Origin: Haloterrigena salina JCM 13891
Lineage (GTDB): Archaea; Halobacteriota; Halobacteria; Halobacteriales; Natrialbaceae
Assembly: GCF_000337495.1 (NCBI RefSeq)
Contig: NZ_AOIS01000054.1
Coordinates: 129,532 to 181,298 of the forward strand
DNA length: 51,767 nt
Reading direction: 5' to 3'
Below, one piece after another: positions 6,869 through 36,232 of this stretch. Position 1 is the first letter of the stretch. The number at the start of each line of letters is the position of its first letter. Below the pieces are notes generated by a model, which saw only the letters and a list, made by a program, of their open reading frames with translations, had not been told where the DNA came from and did not search any database. The translations under genes and the position numbers were made by a program.

Positions 6869-8107
6869 ATGACGCTCTTCGAGCGGTCCGAAGCTATTTT
6901 CGAGGATGAAAACGTCTTGCACGACGATTATCAGCCCGAATCGCTCGAGGAACGCGACGACGAAATCGAGCAATACACCGCGTACCTACAGCCTGTCATC
7001 AACGGTTCACAGCCTCGAAATATTTTCCTCTACGGGAAGACTGGTGTCGGCAAGACAGCGGCGACGAAATATCTTCTTCACCATCTCGAGGAGGACGCAA
7101 AACAGTACGATGACCTCTCAGTCACCACTGTCTATCTCAACTGCGAGGATCTGACTAGTAGCTATCGCGTGGCCGTTGCACTCGTCAATACCTTACGGGA
7201 TCCGTCTGATCAAATCAGTCGAACTGGGTATCCGTTGAACGCGGTCTACGAAAAGCTGTGGACGGAACTCGACCGAATCGGTGGGACGATTTTGATCGTT
7301 TTAGACGAAGTCGATTACATTGGCGACGACGATTCGATCCTCTATCAACTTCCGCGTGCTCGCAGTAACGAGAAAATAGAACGCGCTCGAATCGGGATTA
7401 TCGGGATCAGCAACGATTTCAAATATCGAGAGAAACTCGATCCGCGCGTCGAAGACACGCTGTGTGAACGCGAACTACACTTCCCGCCATATGACGCGAA
7501 CGAACTCCAGAACATTCTCGAACGACGTGCAACGTTAGCGTTCAAAGACGGCATTCTCGAGGAAGATGTTGTTCCGTTGTGTGCAGCGTTTGCCGCGCAA
7601 GATAAGGGAAGTGCCCGTCAAGGACTTGACCTCCTTCTCGAGGCGGGTGATCTAGCCCGTCGACGAAACGATTCTATCGTTACAGAAGATCACGTTCGCG
7701 AGGCGAAACAGTTGCTGGAAAAGCAGCGGATCGAAGAGAGCATGAAAGAGTTGACCTCTCACGGACATCTCACACTCTTGGCTGTAGTCGCATCGACGAT
7801 TGCGGAACCGTCTGAAGCGCCATTTCAAAAGCAACGACTTTACGAACAGTATACCGATCTCGCGGTCGCGACCGACCGTGATCCTCTCGGCGGCAGGGCG
7901 TTTCATAATCACTTAGCCGAACTCTCGATGCTCGGGATTCTCGATCGAACGAAGCGTAACGAAGGCAGGAGTGGTGGGATATACTACGAATATCAGGTCG
8001 ATGTTTCGATCGATGGTGCGCTTTCGACACTGGACAATTTGCATTTGAGCGGTAGTCTGAACCTCGACTCACTCTGGGAAACCGCGGAGGAACAGGGGCT
8101 CGTGTAA
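6869..8107 (+). CDS. orc: Orc1/Cdc6 replication initiator (origin 1)
   Basis: A 412-residue AAA+ initiator that binds ORB elements and opens the origin. The Walker A motif is LYGKTGVGKTAATKYLL (near residue 55), Walker B is ILIVLDEVDYIGDDDSIL, and sensor-type sequence GIIGISNDFKYREKLDPRV follows. The lid region has RQGLDLLLEAGDLARRR. The C-terminal winged-helix domain (about residues 290-400) includes FHNHLAELSMLGILDRTKRNEG. Its length is normal for the family. The ATG sits about 25 nt after TTTTATTG, so the transcript is probably leaderless. ORB copies flank it on both sides. It resembles the initiator at 34190-35407 in Walker B context and overall plan, but its repeats differ. Confidence 0.95.
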   Translation: MTLFERSEAIFEDENVLHDDYQPESLEERDDEIEQYTAYLQPVINGSQPRNIFLYGKTGVGKTAATKYLLHHLEEDAKQYDDLSVTTVYLNCEDLTSSYRVAVALVNTLRDPSDQISRTGYPLNAVYEKLWTELDRIGGTILIVLDEVDYIGDDDSILYQLPRARSNEKIERARIGIIGISNDFKYREKLDPRVEDTLCERELHFPPYDANELQNILERRATLAFKDGILEEDVVPLCAAFAAQDKGSARQGLDLLLEAGDLARRRNDSIVTEDHVREAKQLLEKQRIEESMKELTSHGHLTLLAVVASTIAEPSEAPFQKQRLYEQYTDLAVATDRDPLGGRAFHNHLAELSMLGILDRTKRNEGRSGGIYYEYQVDVSIDGALSTLDNLHLSGSLNLDSLWETAEEQGLV

Positions 8108-11430: not shown

Positions 11431-11796
11431 ATGACACTCGAGTTCTCATCGTCCGACGACGCCGCCGATCTCGCGGGCGTCGTTGCCGTGCTGGACGATG
11501 CTGACTGTCGAGAGATCATCGCAATTCTCGAGGCGCCCAAGACCGTTCCCGAGATCGCCGAAGCGGTCGATCTCCCCCTCTCGACGACCTATCGAAAACT
11601 CGATCGGCTGACCGATGCCGGACTCGCCAGCGAGACCGTCGGCGTGCGGCAGGGTCGCCACCACAAGTCCCGGTACGTCGCGAACTTCGACCGGATCGGG
11701 ATCAGTCTCGACGAGGAGCGCGAGTTCCGCGTCGACGTCGACAGCTCGAACGATCAGTCGCTGGGGATCTGGTCGAACGTGAGCGAGGAGTTCTAA
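11431..11796 (+). CDS. Winged-helix transcription regulator (ArsR/HTH_20-like)
   Basis: A 121-residue regulator with one winged helix: DDADCREIIAILEAPKTVPE, recognition region AEAVDLPLSTTYRKLDRLTD, then the wing ETVGVRQGRHHKSRYVANF. A short C-terminal tail follows. Haloarchaeal proteins of this type are small ArsR-like factors of unknown effector. It has the same plan as the product at 49153-49485. It converges with the membrane protein at 11837, and its promoter lies in the 120 bp shared with the adenosyltransferase gene. Confidence 0.8.
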   Translation: MTLEFSSSDDAADLAGVVAVLDDADCREIIAILEAPKTVPEIAEAVDLPLSTTYRKLDRLTDAGLASETVGVRQGRHHKSRYVANFDRIGISLDEEREFRVDVDSSNDQSLGIWSNVSEEF

Positions 11797-11836
11797 CCCA
11801 TCTCAATTTATCAACCATGCTTGTCACGTAGTGGAA

Positions 11837-12508
11837 TTAGAACGAATTTAAATTATTGCGAAGAATTCTACGGAATGGGGAAATAATAGATTTGACAATC
11901 CACAACCCGAAGAGAACAACGGGAGTAACCATCCCCCACTTCGGGGGAATCGCTCGGTACTGATCGTTGATTTTCTCTATCTGATTCTTGCTTTCTAAGT
12001 AGTTGAGTGCAGCCTGAACGCGTGACTCTGTAAGATCCAACTCGGAGGCAAGCGTCGTAATTGACTGTGGTTCGGGGCTTTTCCGAAGGTGCTGATATAC
12101 CCTATTCAGTAATTGGAGGCGGAGCATCGCTTCTTCCCTCTCTGCTGTTGCTACATAGGAGTCTACTGCTGTGGATGTCCCATATTGATGAATTGTAATT
12201 CCATCTAGAAGAAACCAAAGACCAACAACTCCGAATATCCCTCCTATTAGACCTAAGTTGGATAATATAAAAATCATCATTACTGCTATAAGCGTTATAC
12301 CAAAAATCACTCTCTTAGTACCTCTAGAAATATCTGATATATATCCTACAAAATCTATAAGGATAACTCCGATAAGCACCGTAGCAATAGATAATATTTC
12401 AATAGTATTCATATAGGTAAAGTTACTTGTAAATAGAACCATCCCACTCAGGGCGATGATCCCTTGTAATACCTTATTTTTCCAGGCTTCCTCAAAGGGA
12501 TGGATCAT
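11837..12508 (-). CDS. Membrane protein with cytoplasmic winged-helix domain, partner of the halocin-like gene
   Basis: 223 residues. Four hydrophobic segments cover about residues 15-33, 36-56, 65-83 and 84-105. A soluble region follows with a winged helix: MLRLQLLNRVYQHLRKSPEP, then TTLASELDLTESRVQAALNY and EKINDQYRAIPP. A last hydrophobic segment is at about 193-212. It could be a membrane-bound regulator or the self-protection protein for the adjacent halocin-like product; neither is shown. The codon use is AT-rich like its neighbour. It lies 88 bp downstream of the halocin-like gene on the same strand, but AATTTTATTATTG about 29 nt before its ATG suggests its own leaderless promoter as well. 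Confidence 0.7.
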   Translation of the reverse strand: MIHPFEEAWKNKVLQGIIALSGMVLFTSNFTYMNTIEILSIATVLIGVILIDFVGYISDISRGTKRVIFGITLIAVMMIFILSNLGLIGGIFGVVGLWFLLDGITIHQYGTSTAVDSYVATAEREEAMLRLQLLNRVYQHLRKSPEPQSITTLASELDLTESRVQAALNYLESKNQIEKINDQYRAIPPKWGMVTPVVLFGLWIVKSIISPFRRILRNNLNSF

Positions 12509-12596
12509 AACTTGATATTCGCTACTTCCAATAATAAAATTTTCCCCTGCTACGCAACATAAATGGCCCAGAACTAAAACAAGTGGGCCAATATAT

Positions 12597-13571
12597 CTAA
12601 CAGTCGAATGCTAAGTCACAGACAACTCCAGAAGATGATACACATACCGTTACTCCGCCTACGGTTGTAACTTGCTCACAAAACACAGCACAAGCACCTG
12701 ATAGATAGGGGAAAGACGAAGCAAGTGGAACACATCTGCTTAGACAACCCCAGAATCCGAGCTGATTTGCGCCACCACAGATTGCGCTAAGTGCACTCGG
12801 ACAAAAGCTACAAACTAAGTCCCAGAATCCGTCACTTGCATCTGCAACTGTAACCCGCCTACCGTTGAAATCTCTATAGCTGTTGATTACTTCTTGATCA
12901 ACATCTAGCTTTTCTCGTGATACTGCTTTACTTATGCTTGGAGTTTGACTTTTTATACTCGGAAGCGCATTCTGGTTGACTTCTTTTCTTCCAAGTTCTG
13001 TTGGTTGTGGCTCATATTTTGGTGTTGTTTCTTGGTTTATCGAATCGTCATTTTCAAATCCGAATGCTGTTGCAGTAAGGGAATTAGATTCCGACCCGGA
13101 AGAACTGAATATTATACCAGCGGCAGTAATCGGTTTTCGCTCTCCTTCAATGGTCCCGGTCATTGCAATTATTGTCCCGGTTCCATCAAGGCCTGATTCA
13201 GATAATCCTCTTTTCGTTCCTATAGCAATCGGTGTAATTGCTAAATCATAGGGATCTAAATCTTCATCTCCAGTTTCAATTGAATAGGACAGTGGCATTT
13301 CAATAGTCACTGCCCCGCTTTCATTGTGGATGTAGGATTCCAGATCCTGAATAGCTTGGTCCTGTTTGACCGCCCTCATATCTATCTCAGCATCATAGGC
13401 GGTCTTCATACTGATATCGGGGGATGTGTTCTCTTCAACTGGAGCAGCTGCTACAGAACCACTACTTGCAAGACTGAGAGATGAAACCCCTGTGGCGCTA
13501 CCCAGTGTTGCAAGTACTTTGCGTCGGTTCACCTCTTCCGAACTGCGTGTGTTTCTTGCCACAATATACAC
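12597..13571 (-). CDS. Halocin C8-like precursor: Tat signal, long leader, 10-cysteine C-terminal peptide
   Basis: 324 residues with the architecture of the halocin C8 precursor. A Tat signal (NRRKVLATLG, Arg16-Arg17, hydrophobic SLSLASSGSVAAA) is followed by an acidic domain of about 200 residues. Residues 1-250 contain no cysteine. The last 79 residues contain ten: CSFC near 254-257, then singles ending in VCDLAFDC. Halocin C8 is likewise a stable ten-cysteine peptide released from a Tat-exported precursor whose N-terminal part gives immunity. The mature region is about 12600-12836. The start is GTG at 13571 or GTG at 13562. A/T-rich boxes lie 25-30 nt upstream. The region is much richer in A+T than its flanks, suggesting recent transfer. 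The cleavage site is not predicted. Confidence 0.8.
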   Translation of the reverse strand: MYIVARNTRSSEEVNRRKVLATLGSATGVSSLSLASSGSVAAAPVEENTSPDISMKTAYDAEIDMRAVKQDQAIQDLESYIHNESGAVTIEMPLSYSIETGDEDLDPYDLAITPIAIGTKRGLSESGLDGTGTIIAMTGTIEGERKPITAAGIIFSSSGSESNSLTATAFGFENDDSINQETTPKYEPQPTELGRKEVNQNALPSIKSQTPSISKAVSREKLDVDQEVINSYRDFNGRRVTVADASDGFWDLVCSFCPSALSAICGGANQLGFWGCLSRCVPLASSFPYLSGACAVFCEQVTTVGGVTVCVSSSGVVCDLAFDC

Positions 13572-14035
13572 TAACGAATAACAGTATGAAAATTTAACTA
13601 ATATATCTATATTTTAATTGGTCTTTATATTAAAAATGACGTGGGGCCGGCTACCCGACTGGACTCGTTTCGATGGCCCGACTGACAGCGAACAGGCTGT
13701 CGTACCGGCCCGTCGAACTGTCTTCGAGAGTTCCTAACAGCACTGATCGATCTTGCATCCTCAACGATCTAACGGTCCTCGTCTTGGGCGGCTACACCGA
13801 CCAGATCACCCGATTTCCGCTGCCGGAACGTACGCCGAGAAGTTCACCGGTACGACAACTTCACTCTTTTTGCCGTGTTTGAGCGGGCCCTCGACCTTGA
13901 TAGCTCGGTCGTCTGAATCATGGTTGATCGCGGAAGCATGGCAAGTCACGCGGCGACCGTTCGTCCGGTGATCGCCGCTGCCGATCCGACCGGTTGAACC
14001 TCACCATTAACTGAGATGGTAATGAGGTGACGAGC
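13572..14035. other. Intergenic region with one possible small gene
   Basis: About 460 bp between the halocin-like gene and the UspA gene. The left 70 bp is A/T-rich and holds the halocin-like promoter. The remainder returns to high G+C. Only one protein-like frame is seen (13806-13949, minus strand), listed separately with low confidence. Confidence 0.5.
13806..13949 (-). CDS. Possible 47-residue protein of unknown function
   Basis: A GTG-started frame of 47 residues containing INHDSDDRAIKVEGPLKHGK and VVVPVNFSAYVPAAEIG. The composition (acidic start, Lys-rich centre, alternating hydrophobics) is more protein-like than other frames here, but there is no clear ribosome-binding site and no recognised family. 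It could equally be a remnant of a longer gene or a chance frame. Codon use is mixed. Confidence 0.2.
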   Translation of the reverse strand: MTCHASAINHDSDDRAIKVEGPLKHGKKSEVVVPVNFSAYVPAAEIG

Positions 14036-14530
14036 ATGTCGTTCGTCGTCCCGTTCGACGGATCGGAGCTCTCGGAGGCCGCCCTCGTCCGGGCGGTCGA
14101 GTACGGAACCGCGCTCGAGGAGGACGTCGCCGCCGTGAGCCTCGTCTCGGAGCGCCGGCGCTACGCGGTGGAGAAGGGCTGGATCGAGGCGGGCGAGCCC
14201 TACGACGTCGACGCGGTCGTCGACCGGCTCCGCGACCGCGTGCTGACGCTGGCGCCCGACGCGACGTTCGAGTGCGAACGGATCCGCGAGTACCCGCCCG
14301 AAGCCGAACTCGCCGAGCACATCGAACGGCTGGTGCTCGAGCACGACCCCAGCGCGGTCTTCTTCGGCAGCGAGAACGTCGGTCGCGTCGTGACGCCGCT
14401 GACCAGCGTCGGGGCCCGCGTCGCCGCCGAGACGTCCTACGACGTCTTCATCGTCCGCGGTACGCAACCGCCGAAACTGGACGCGCTCGACCCTCACCCG
14501 GAGTTCTACGACGACTCGCGTGCGGACTGA
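14036..14530 (+). CDS. Universal stress protein (UspA family)
   Basis: A 164-residue UspA-domain protein. It begins MSFVVPFDGSELSEAALVRA, the typical first strand and loop. The nucleotide-site region is partly kept: the DPSAVFFGSENVGRVVTPLT segment replaces the usual GxxGxxxxxxxGS ATP motif, so ATP binding is uncertain. It ends with SYDVFIVRGTQPPKL. GAGGTG lies 6 nt before the ATG at 14036 and decides that start over the GTG at 14027. The gene precedes the FAD oxidoreductase by about 80 bp on the same strand, so co-transcription is possible. Confidence 0.88.
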   Translation: MSFVVPFDGSELSEAALVRAVEYGTALEEDVAAVSLVSERRRYAVEKGWIEAGEPYDVDAVVDRLRDRVLTLAPDATFECERIREYPPEAELAEHIERLVLEHDPSAVFFGSENVGRVVTPLTSVGARVAAETSYDVFIVRGTQPPKLDALDPHPEFYDDSRAD

Positions 14531-14612
14531 TCGACGATCGACGCGGGCCGATCGGTGCCGCCTTCGGTGTTAGGGACATCGGTTACGTCGGTCGCTCCCG
14601 CAGTGGACGTCG

Positions 14613-16307
14613 ATGACCGACGTAGCCGTACTCGGCGGCGGAATCGGCGGCCTCACCGCGGCCCACGAACTCGCCCGACGGGGCCTCGAGGTGACGGTCT
14701 TCGAGGCCAACGACCGCTTCGGCGGCAAGGCGCGATCGATGCCGATCGACGACGGCCCGGCGCCGCTGCACGGCGAACACGGGTTCCGGTTCTTCCCGGC
14801 CTTCTACCGCCACGTCACCGACACGATGGCCCGCATCCCCGACGGCGACGGCACGGTCGCGGACAACCTCGTCGAGACCGAGGCGACGCTGATCGCCAGC
14901 GAGCGGGGGCCGGGACGGATCGCCGAGACGCGCACGCCCGACACGGTGCGGGGCTGGCTCGAGGCGCTGCGCCCGGCGTTCGCCGAGGACCTGCCCGCCG
15001 CCGACGTCCGCTTTCTGCTCGAGCGACTGCTGTACTTCCTGACAGCCTGCGAACAGCGCCGCGAGAACGAACTGGACGACGTCTCGTGGTGGGAGTTCAT
15101 CGACGCCGACGACCGCTCGCCGGAGTTCCGCGAGCGACTCGCGTACGCGACGCAGGCGCTGGTCGCGTTGCGCCCGCAGGTCGGGAGCGCGCGGACGATC
15201 GGCGCCGTCTACCTCCAACTGCTGTTCGGTCAACTCGATCCGACTCGGCCGACCGAGCGCGTGTTGAACGCGCCGACCAGCGAGGCGTGGATCGACCCGT
15301 GGGTGCGCTACCTCGAGTCCCTCGGCGTCGAGTTCCGGCCGAACGCGCCGATCCGGCGACTCGAGTTCGACGGTCGACGCGTCACCGGCGCCGTCGTCGG
15401 CTCCGAGCGCGACGCAGACGGGCCGTCTCCCGAGCGGATCGAGGCCGACGACTACGTCCTCGCCGTCCCCGTCGACGTCGCGCCGCGGCTGCTCACCCCC
15501 GAACTGACGCGAACCGCGCCCGCGCTCGGTCGGATCGAGCGCCTCGACACCGCCTGGATGAACGGGATCCAGTTCTACCTGACCGAAGACGTCACGCTGT
15601 CGCGGGGCCACCAGGTCTACGCCGACGCCCCGTGGGCGCTGACGTCGATCTCGCAGCGCCAGTTCTGGTCGGGGTCGGACTACGACCTCGAGGACCGCGA
15701 CGACGAGGTCGCGGGCGTCCTCTCGGTGATCGTCTCAGACTGGGAGACGCCGGGAATCCTGCACGAGAAGCCGGCCAGACGGTGCAGCCGAGAGGAGATC
15801 GCTGCGGAGGTCTGGGAACAGCTGAAAATCCACCTGAACGGCGCCGACGAACGGCTGCGAGACGACATGCTCGTCGACTGGTTCCTCGATCCGGCGATCG
15901 TCGAGACCGGCGGTGCGCCGGAGACGCAAGGGGAAGACGGCGACGCCGTCGCCGGCGTCGAGAACCGCTCGCCGCTGTTGATCAACACCGTCGGCTCGTT
16001 GCGGAACCGGCCGCCCGCTGACGTCGGCGTTCCGAACCTCGCGCTGGCCGGCGACTACGTCCGAACGAACGCCGATCTGGCCTCCATGGAATCGGCCAAC
16101 GAGGCCGGCCGCCGCGCGGCCAACGCCGTCCTCGAGCGCCGCGGCGTCCGCGCGTCGCCGGCGCGGATCTGGGACCTCGAGGAACCCGTCGTGTTCGATC
16201 CGCTCAAACGGGAGGATCGGGTTCGATACCGGCTCGGACTTCCTCACCCCGCGGAACTGACGCAGTCGCTGCGGACGGTCACGCGCGGATTGGTCGGTGG
16301 TCGTTAA
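14613..16307 (+). CDS. FAD-dependent amine oxidase / phytoene-desaturase-like protein
   Basis: A 564-residue flavoprotein. The dinucleotide fold is at the N-terminus (VAVLGGGIGGLTAAHELARR, then VTVFEANDRFGGKARS). The C-terminal FAD motif is LALAGDYVRTNADLASMESA with AGRRAANAVL. The HGFRFFPAFYRHV stretch is typical of a group of desaturase-like oxidoreductases related to carotenoid desaturases and hydroxysqualene dehydroxylase. The substrate is unknown; a carotenoid or isoprenoid is plausible in a haloarchaeon. It is convergent with the glycerol-3-phosphate dehydrogenase-like gene, whose stop is only 20 bp away. Confidence 0.85.
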   Translation: MTDVAVLGGGIGGLTAAHELARRGLEVTVFEANDRFGGKARSMPIDDGPAPLHGEHGFRFFPAFYRHVTDTMARIPDGDGTVADNLVETEATLIASERGPGRIAETRTPDTVRGWLEALRPAFAEDLPAADVRFLLERLLYFLTACEQRRENELDDVSWWEFIDADDRSPEFRERLAYATQALVALRPQVGSARTIGAVYLQLLFGQLDPTRPTERVLNAPTSEAWIDPWVRYLESLGVEFRPNAPIRRLEFDGRRVTGAVVGSERDADGPSPERIEADDYVLAVPVDVAPRLLTPELTRTAPALGRIERLDTAWMNGIQFYLTEDVTLSRGHQVYADAPWALTSISQRQFWSGSDYDLEDRDDEVAGVLSVIVSDWETPGILHEKPARRCSREEIAAEVWEQLKIHLNGADERLRDDMLVDWFLDPAIVETGGAPETQGEDGDAVAGVENRSPLLINTVGSLRNRPPADVGVPNLALAGDYVRTNADLASMESANEAGRRAANAVLERRGVRASPARIWDLEEPVVFDPLKREDRVRYRLGLPHPAELTQSLRTVTRGLVGGR

Positions 16308-34189: not shown

Positions 34190-35407
34190 TCATCCGGTTT
34201 GATCGATGCGTTTCTGGATCGCTTCCGTCACCCCTACCATATCAACCGTCTCCTCAAGCGCTTCAAGTAATAGATCGGAATTCGTATCGAGTGAATATTC
34301 ATAATATCGACCACCAGCTTCGCCTTTGTTTCGCTCGATTCGACTCGCGATTCCTAACATTGCGAGTTCACCGAGGTGGTCCCGCATTCGACGTGGGACC
34401 AGCGGATCAATCGCGGCACGATCACAGACGAGTTCGTACCGGTCTTGAATATCACGTGCTCTAATGGGAGTTTTTCGCTCCTCATGAAGCATTAAAAGCG
34501 CATATAGAACGAGATGCCCCTGTTGAGTGAGTCCAGTGACACCATCAACAATCCGGCTTCGTTCGAGTGCTTTCCGAGCCTCGTCAACGTGTACTTCGGT
34601 AACTCGCTCCGCATCTTGTTGGACGGCGATATCGCCTGCTTCCATAAGCAGATCAAGACTCTGACGGGCATCGCCAGCATCTTTCGCACCAAACGCAGCA
34701 CACTTCGCAATCACTTCTCGTGGAACGATACTATCGTAAAAGGCAATTTCAGCACGTTGTCGAAGAATAGCACGAAGCTCGTTTGCATTGTAAGCCGGAA
34801 ACTGCAGTTCTTTTTCGCAGAGGCTTGACTGAACCTTCGAACTCAATCCCTCTCGGTACTTGAAGTCGTTCGAAATACCGATGATACCGACTTTCGATTC
34901 CTCAAGGTTATCGTTTGCTCGAGCGCGAGGGATCTGATATAGGATAGAATCGTCTTCGATGTGATCGACTTCATCGAAAACGATAATTATCGTTCCACCC
35001 ACTCCATCGAGTTCGTCCCAGAGCCACTCGTTGACCTGCCATTGCGGATATCCGGTTGGTTTCAACTGCTCATCTTGAGAACGAAATTTGTTTATCAATT
35101 GAATTGCAACCTGATAGCTCGTATTTAAGTCCTCACAGTTCAGTTGGACAGTCGTAAGTTCGACATCGTATTCTGCCGCATCTGACTCGAGCTCACCTAA
35201 CAGATAGCGAGTACAGGCCGTTTTGCCAACGCCAGCTTTTCCGTAGAGAAATATGTTTGCGGGTTGATCGCCATTGATCACCGGCTGGAGTGCAGAAATA
35301 TACCGCTGTAGTTCCTCATCTCGCCCAACGATTTCCCTGGGTTGGTAATCCTCACGGAGGACATCTCGTTGGCGGAAAATCTCCGTATCTGGTTGGAATA
35401 TTCCCAT
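34190..35407 (-). CDS. orc: Orc1/Cdc6 replication initiator (origin 2)
   Basis: A 405-residue AAA+ initiator, starting MGIFQPDTEIFRQRDVLRED at 35407 with an A/T-rich ATTATTTGAAT box about 30 nt upstream, so probably leaderless. Walker A is LYGKAGVGKTACTRYLL (near residue 56), Walker B is GTIIIVFDEVDHIEDDSILY, and GIIGISNDFKYREGLSSKVQ contains sensor sequence. The lid has ARQSLDLLMEAGDIAVQQ. The C-terminal winged helix (MRDHLGELAMLGIASRIERN) is complete. ORB copies lie on both sides, two of them just upstream of its promoter, suggesting autoregulation. It and the origin-1 initiator share the same layout. Confidence 0.95.
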   Translation of the reverse strand: MGIFQPDTEIFRQRDVLREDYQPREIVGRDEELQRYISALQPVINGDQPANIFLYGKAGVGKTACTRYLLGELESDAAEYDVELTTVQLNCEDLNTSYQVAIQLINKFRSQDEQLKPTGYPQWQVNEWLWDELDGVGGTIIIVFDEVDHIEDDSILYQIPRARANDNLEESKVGIIGISNDFKYREGLSSKVQSSLCEKELQFPAYNANELRAILRQRAEIAFYDSIVPREVIAKCAAFGAKDAGDARQSLDLLMEAGDIAVQQDAERVTEVHVDEARKALERSRIVDGVTGLTQQGHLVLYALLMLHEERKTPIRARDIQDRYELVCDRAAIDPLVPRRMRDHLGELAMLGIASRIERNKGEAGGRYYEYSLDTNSDLLLEALEETVDMVGVTEAIQKRIDQTG

Positions 35408-35441
35408 TGATATTATTAGTGTACTTCTATTCAAATAATAC

Positions 35442-35470
35442 CATCGTGTCCAGTGAGTCCAGTGTCTGCT
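35442..35470 (-). repeat. ORB-like repeat, origin 2, promoter-proximal copy
   Basis: Contains GTCCAGTGAGTCCAGTGTCT, a doubled form of the GTCCAGTGTCT core. It overlaps the region just upstream of the TATA-like box of the orc gene. Confidence 0.65.
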
Positions 35471-35487
35471 ATAGAACACGGATCACC

Positions 35488-36075: not shown

Positions 36076-36120
36076 CAACTTTCTAAGTACGACCAACGAA
36101 TGCTCACCCGTCTTTCGGAA

Positions 36121-36232
36121 GACACTGGACATGGTGGGGTGGGAGAGAAGACACTGGACATGGTGGGGTGGGAGAGAAGACACTGGACATGGTGGGGTGG
36201 GAGAGAAGACACTGGACATAGTGGGGTCTCTC
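36121..36232 (+). repeat. 29-bp tandem ORB array, origin 2
   Basis: Units start at 36121, 36150, 36179 and 36208. Each begins GACACTGGACAT, followed by GGTGGGGTGGGAGAGAA. The first three are identical over the core; the fourth is diverged after the first 15 bases (CATAGTGGGGTCTC). Exact periodicity of 29 bp places successive Orc sites at about 2.8 helical turns. Confidence 0.9.

Follow-up and report, generated by a model that had tools for sequence, protein, structure and literature searches.

In this work we have analysed a window of 51,767 nucleotides from Haloterrigena salina, by which we mean the whole stretch of DNA under study, and we found in it a gene which, judged by its sequence relatives, is a divergent member of the halocin C8 family with a variant cysteine frame. 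We consider it likely that the gene's product is a secreted, hydrophobic and membrane-active antimicrobial peptide, stapled by disulphides and belonging to a second class of the halocin C8 superfamily, here called class B. With this class, the range of archaeal antimicrobial peptides worth searching for becomes wider. The membrane proteins conserved beside its precursors are immunity candidates in a family whose immunity has so far been known only from inside the precursor, and the pattern in which cysteines are lost together gives a concrete, measurable disulphide pairing for the whole halocin C8 family.

Anatomy of the precursor

The precursor gene lies on the minus strand at 12597-13571 and, according to the list of open reading frames and its translation, encodes 324 residues from a GTG start codon. 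The region upstream of it (13572-13640, minus strand) is very A+T-rich, contains the TATA-like stretches TTTAATATAAAG and TTAAATTTT, and is a putative promoter. The protein begins with a twin-arginine (Tat) signal region, NRRKVLA..AAA, at residues 1-43 (13443-13571, minus strand), with a presumed cleavage point; NRRK is invariant across a five-member alignment, and a Tat-target model matches the precursor weakly. Next comes an acidic, cysteine-free pro-domain at residues 44-174 (13050-13442, minus strand), recognised with AlphaFold, VIA-align and the class-B pro-region HMM, which is a candidate self-immunity or chaperone domain. Residues 175-246 (12834-13049, minus strand) form a linker with a pLDDT below 50 at model residues 132-203; it is probably disordered, and by analogy with ProC8 a processing site probably lies near its end, at about residue 246. 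The precursor closes with a ten-cysteine domain (12600-12833, minus strand), identified from the sequence and its relatives as a predicted mature peptide of about 77-79 residues with the spacing C2C7C10C3C13C3C11C7C5C. Residues 1-253 contain no cysteine, and the ten lie at positions 254, 257, 265, 276, 280, 294, 298, 310, 318 and 324; under random placement, the chance that every one of them falls within the final 71 of the 324 residues is about 1.5e-7. The cysteine-free stretch has 35 D/E against 17 K/R in 202 residues, and the predicted mature part (about 77 residues) is hydrophobic, as is halocin C8 (GRAVY 1.0 and 0.89, respectively). The window protein has the plan of the superfamily, namely a Tat signal, a cysteine-free pro-region and a C-terminal ten-cysteine domain. 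The initial annotation had already described a Tat signal, about 200 cysteine-free residues followed by ten cysteines in the last 79, and the spacings CSFC, FWGC, LSRC, FCEQ and VCDLAFDC; the signal and the spacings are present in the translation, and the count and positions of the cysteines agree. The interval it covered, 11837-13571, also contains a second minus-strand open reading frame, at 11837-12508, of which the annotation made no mention.

Relatives and membership of the superfamily

The initial annotation had read the gene as a halocin C8-like precursor and proposed a profile search as a check. Searched directly, the window protein gave no match at E≤1 to TIGR04449, the curated halocin C8-like model of NCBIfam with a cut-off of 24 bits, whereas homology emerged by way of intermediates. 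Among 391 genomes of the host's class, 16 match the full precursor, a patchy distribution. Three contain full-length relatives with identical cysteine spacing (G375, G041 and G059; 27-33% identity, E 1e-25 to 1e-27), and all ten cysteines are kept in these nearest homologues, which bears out the cysteine conservation on which the initial reading depended. G193 has a near relative and G326 a farther one, and a remnant of 50 residues survives in G192. The profile of the window's clade (A3) also finds TIGR04449 members in G319 (8.8e-10), G132 (2.8e-9) and G272 (5.7e-7), as well as G309, G351, G361 and a second G375 locus, the weakest at E 3e-3. TIGR04449 itself matches 17 of 22 class-B proteins, and evidently the window protein, its three full-length sisters and G193 are those outside it. 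When 24 class-B domains were aligned with 42 class-A domains (the halocin C8 type), hhalign gave a probability of 90% and E 2e-7 with both ends in register; a smaller comparison of five class-B with twelve class-A domains had been weak and out of register, and it was the larger alignments that brought the value to 90%. On the strength of these profile matches and of the alignment between the classes, the window precursor is, as far as sequence comparison goes, a member of the halocin C8 superfamily by descent, connected through intermediates and lying outside the curated model; the original reading is thus supported. Its claim that the spacing is new holds in that the frame differs from that of halocin C8, but not beyond this, since the same frame recurs in other haloarchaea.

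TIGR04449 matches occur in 47 of the 391 genomes, and the window's own genome has three other TIGR04449 precursors, while the window gene itself is missed by the model. These three (L054, L055 and L056) belong to class A, and the halocin C8 domain of one is 91% identical to the reference domain. Searches of the window protein against Pfam, PHROGs, PADLOC and plasmids gave no direct match of significance, and protein and profile pattern scans of genome contigs and viral contigs found no relatives.

Two classes of precursor

The ten-cysteine domains fall into class A, with the halocin C8 type of frame C2C7C3C7... (43 sequences), and class B, to which the window precursor belongs, with C2C7C10-12C3C10-13C3C11C7... 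(25 sequences). The domain profiles of the two classes are mutually blind, each leaving the other class unscored at E≤1e-3. Their pro-regions divide in the same way. A class-B pro-region profile built without the window recognised the window at E 6.3e-15 and found 23 of 23 class-B pro-regions; the class-A profile, used to ask whether the window has a HalI-type pro-region, scored it at E 1.7 and found no class-B pro-region. The class-B pro-region profile also scores four class-A sequences weakly, which suggests a remote kinship between the pro-regions of the two classes. Judged by these profiles, class B is a second class, partly missed by the current curated models. An enlarged halocin C8 family was reportedly described by Makarova et al. 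in 2019, and class B may already have been noted there. A class-B-like precursor in G208 (L095, 7947-8807) has a much shorter central loop (C3C4C3C) and was excluded from the class counts.

Disulphide pairing from cysteine co-loss

We compared the cysteine columns of 66 domains, 42 of class A and 24 of class B, a cysteine merely displaced by a few residues, as in four class-B domains, being counted as kept. One or more cysteines are missing from 16 of the 66, and the losses are mostly in partner pairs: {1,10} and {5,6} five times each, {3,8} twice, {3,4,7,8} and {3,4,6,7,8} once each, and cysteine 4 alone or cysteine 6 alone once each. The fully nested ladder 1-10, 2-9, 3-8, 4-7, 5-6 is the best of all 945 perfect pairings, closed in 13 of the 16 loss sets, with 12 of 16 for the next best; the loss sets are not 16 independent events because related sequences share losses, and with each pattern counted once the ladder is again the best, at 4 of 7. 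The pairing is broken by the loss of cysteine 4 in L060 and of cysteine 6 in L152 and L155. Pair 2-9 is assigned by elimination, and pairs 2-9 and 4-7 are backed by little or no loss data. In the window domain the two positions of each pair add up to 72, 69, 69, 68 and 68, as an antiparallel hairpin requires, and between the classes the two inner pairs shift by helical turns, C-x7-C twice in class A and C-x3-C twice in class B. The co-loss pattern suggests that the five disulphides form the nested ladder in full.

Predicted fold

To our knowledge, neither the fold nor the disulphide pairing of halocin C8 has been published. The AlphaFold model of class B, built with 22 sequences (mean pLDDT 68, the cysteine domain mostly 60-82), has a pro-domain of a strand, two helices and an antiparallel sheet, then a disordered linker, and helices in the cysteine domain at 204-222, 230-242, 246-262 and 271-279. 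The model of halocin C8 (27 sequences, pLDDT 84, pTM 0.81) has its elements in the same order. In VIA-align, rows 1-7 of the pro-domain search were all cystatins (Z 5.5-6.5), and the cysteine domain matched human saposin D best, though weakly (Z 5.1, 3.0 A, 71 of 78 residues), all these Z values lying in the range where chance arrangements occur. The model weakly suggests that the pro-domain is a cystatin-like helix-loop-helix on an antiparallel sheet.

Could the cysteine domain be related to saposins? Foldseek with the predicted structure gave no match at E≤0.001, and nothing was found in a viral structure library or by a profile search against PDB sequences. SapB_1 and SapB_2 did not match the window, and among 22 class-B members they hit a single one, at E 0.51. 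Against four saposins, hhalign returned a probability of 0.6% with a score of 10.3; in the control, none of 100 permutations with fixed cysteines reached 10.3, the maximum being 5.95. Homology to saposins by sequence is therefore not established by the PDB profile search, the SapB_1/SapB_2 search or hhalign. A saposin signal was likewise not seen for class A, where the halocin C8 structure search was filled by the pro-region and barely probed the cysteine domain. Saposins have nested disulphides with C-x2-C and C-x5-C ends, and the window domain has both spacings, at its start and its end. Because saposins share both ends and the nesting that co-loss suggests here, the saposin-like model is independently supported, and we regard it as a good working model of the predicted domain. 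In the literature searched, halocins were not joined with saposins, and both words occurred only in one general bacteriocin review. PMC7447066, which gives the features of the membrane-interacting saposin-like proteins (SAPLIP), mentions the saposin C residues Cys72 and Cys78.

Downstream membrane proteins

The second open reading frame (11837-12508, minus strand) starts 88 bp downstream of the precursor on the same strand and encodes a protein of 223 residues in which four predicted membrane segments are combined with a winged helix and a hydrophobic segment comes last; some members of its family adjoin class-B precursors, and it is a candidate immunity or regulatory partner. Is such a neighbour usual? 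Counting as a partner any small open reading frame with at least two membrane segments which starts at most 450 bp downstream on the same strand, we found one in 8 of 14 class-B loci and 10 of 22 class-A loci, compared with 23 of 266 control genes in those loci (p 1.7e-5 and 2.5e-5, respectively). Four more class-B loci with such a gene (G272, G361, G319 and the second G375 locus) were recognised by eye. Under a grouping made post hoc, the halocin C8 spacing group has it in 0 of 10 loci and the other class-A precursors in 10 of 12. The absence from the former fits the known single-gene immunity of halocin C8, as stated in the title of a 2005 paper by Sun et al. that PMC11509114 cites. The partner types track the precursor clades, and in G192, G398 and G000:C54:4.4-5.0 kb an intact membrane partner stands beside a precursor remnant, the pattern to be expected if immunity genes persist longer than the toxin. 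The small downstream membrane proteins are probably immunity proteins.

The last of these remnants (L081, 4400-4959) is the second class-B precursor of the window's own genome, decayed by frame breaks, and adjoins an apparently intact 59-residue membrane open reading frame of the 'GEDHW' type, which is also found in G193 and G398. Another partner type consists of a single two-helix unit (88 residues) or its tandem duplicate (157-162 residues), with PWxP after each unit; partners of this type are found at L092 5189-5662, L084 8057-8545 and L089 8364-8630.

The 223-residue protein is less simply placed. Of 125 genomes of the host's family, 51 carry relatives of it, mostly away from halocins, and we reject the idea that it is a dedicated halocin partner throughout, its homologues lying mostly elsewhere. 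Members of the family adjoin class-B precursors downstream in G361 (E 7e-11) and upstream in G309 (E 2e-9). The family profile ranks the three 4-TM partners of a sister clade first among 22 (E 4e-5 to 6e-4), a weak ranking given the few sequences and their biased composition; an earlier hhalign comparison of these 4-TM partners with the 223-residue protein was negative.

The island and its site

The initial annotation had called the locus far richer in A+T than its flanks, and this proved correct: G+C is 41.9% over the 1.85 kb at 11797-13650, against 66.4% in the left flank and 70.1% in the right. The whole inserted island extends over 11797-14568 and takes in both genes and a UspA-like gene of normal, high G+C (14027-14530). 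In four of five congeners (G192, G181, G197 and G255) only about 70-130 bp separate a wHTH gene from an oxidoreductase gene, whose counterparts in the window end at 11796 and start at 14613, so that about 2.7 kb, from 11797 to about 14568, is an insertion. The fifth congener, G296, carries another insert, about 1.8 kb long, at the corresponding site (G296:C2:77654-79433), which indicates that the wHTH/oxidoreductase junction may be an insertion hot spot. The G296 insert includes a stretch similar to 13757-13907 of the window.

Elsewhere in the window, two Orc1/Cdc6 initiator genes, at 6869-8107 and 34190-35479, lie at most 28 kb apart, both in A+T-rich patches (GC about 0.47-0.5); the former was assigned by TIGR02928 and the latter by sequence likeness only. 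One reading of these patches is that they are orphan replication origins or remains of elements. Near the second gene, 36118-36227 holds 3.8 tandem copies of the 29-bp unit GAAGACACTGGACATGGTGGGGTGGGAGA, possibly origin boxes.

Proposed mechanism and alternatives

ProC8 is exported by the Tat pathway and cleaved into HalI and a mature peptide of 76 residues (PMC11509114), and halocin C8 turns sensitive rods spherical and lyses them (PMC6759562). By analogy with halocin C8, we propose that Tat would export the window precursor, whose acidic pro-domain would keep the C-terminal domain harmless and perhaps, like HalI in the case of halocin C8, make the producer immune. A protease would cut the linker and free the peptide of about 77-79 residues, five nested disulphides would staple its helical hairpin into a saposin-like shape, and the peptide would insert into or permeabilise the membranes of related haloarchaea. 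The adjoining membrane protein would protect the producer; here this would be the 223-residue winged-helix protein, which may be a regulator as well.

Could the gene instead make a secreted signal or structural protein that has borrowed the halocin-like fold and serves at the surface, in biofilms or in mating without being an antagonist? Most family members are sequences only, which leaves room for this reading, but the patchiness (16 of 391 genomes), the inserted island, the intact membrane partners next to decayed precursors and the match of partner type to precursor clade are together typical of bacteriocin/immunity pairs, and we find it improbable. A question closer to the antimicrobial reading is where immunity resides. 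ProC8 holds both functions in one gene, as the titles cited in PMC11509114 state, the predicted element order of the window's pro-domain is that of HalI, helix-loop-helix included, and the neighbour carries a winged helix and has most of its family away from halocins; the whole pro-domain might therefore be a HalI-like immunity protein in a single-gene system, with the 223-residue protein no more than a co-located regulator. The distribution of downstream membrane genes, lacking in all ten loci of the halocin C8 subgroup and present in most other class-A and in 8 of 14 class-B loci, speaks against this, as do the class-B neighbours of the 223-residue family in G361 and G309 and the first rank that its profile gives to the sister clade's 4-TM partners, and we think it rather unlikely.

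It is similarly doubtful, in our opinion, that the peptide binds a specific surface or membrane protein and does not permeabilise lipid. There is a precedent in halocin H6/H7, which acts on the Na+/H+ antiporter (PMC6759562), and the strong differences of partner proteins between clades would fit specific targets; the predicted helical, hydrophobic, disulphide-laddered form nevertheless resembles the membrane-interacting saposin-like proteins (PMC7447066). If the membrane-active reading is taken further, the halocin C8 superfamily might be an archaeal branch, by descent or convergence, of the saposin-like membrane-lytic peptides, a tentative idea to which we give somewhat less than even confidence. 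Its members would be helical hairpins with a five-rung nested ladder whose inner rungs have shifted by turns of the helix from one class to the other; they would be released from a cystatin-like pro-domain and usually accompanied by a dedicated membrane immunity protein that changes fast. In the window a winged-helix membrane protein would have taken the place of this partner or been fused with it, possibly coupling immunity to regulation.

Comparison with known systems

The closest known system is halocin C8 itself (ProC8/HalI/HalC8, from Natrinema and allies), with which the window shares a Tat-type precursor, a cysteine-free pro-region, a C-terminal ten-cysteine peptide (about 76 residues in halocin C8) and a predicted order of helix-helix-sheet followed by four helices. 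The frames differ, C2C7C3C7C13C7C8C8C5C in halocin C8 and C2C7C10C3C13C3C11C7C5C in the window, and the window has a class-B pro-region, no direct TIGR04449 match and a downstream membrane-protein gene that halocin C8 lacks. Other class-B members of TIGR04449 (such as G027, G132, G445 and the second G375 locus) share the class-B pro-region and have the frame 2-7-10/11-3-12/13-3-11-7-5, or this minus one pair; they score in TIGR04449, whereas the window does not. From the saposin-like proteins (saposins, NK-lysin, amoebapores) the window domain differs in having five ladder rungs instead of three and no significant sequence similarity, but it resembles them in its length of about 78 residues, four predicted helices and C-x2-C/C-x5-C ends, and may also do so in nested pairing, to which co-loss points here, and in presumed action on membranes. 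The partner proteins, lastly, resemble the immunity membrane proteins of bacteriocins; the partner in the window differs by its additional winged helix, but, like those proteins, the partners are small, adjoin the toxin gene, are specific to clades and are kept after the toxin has decayed.
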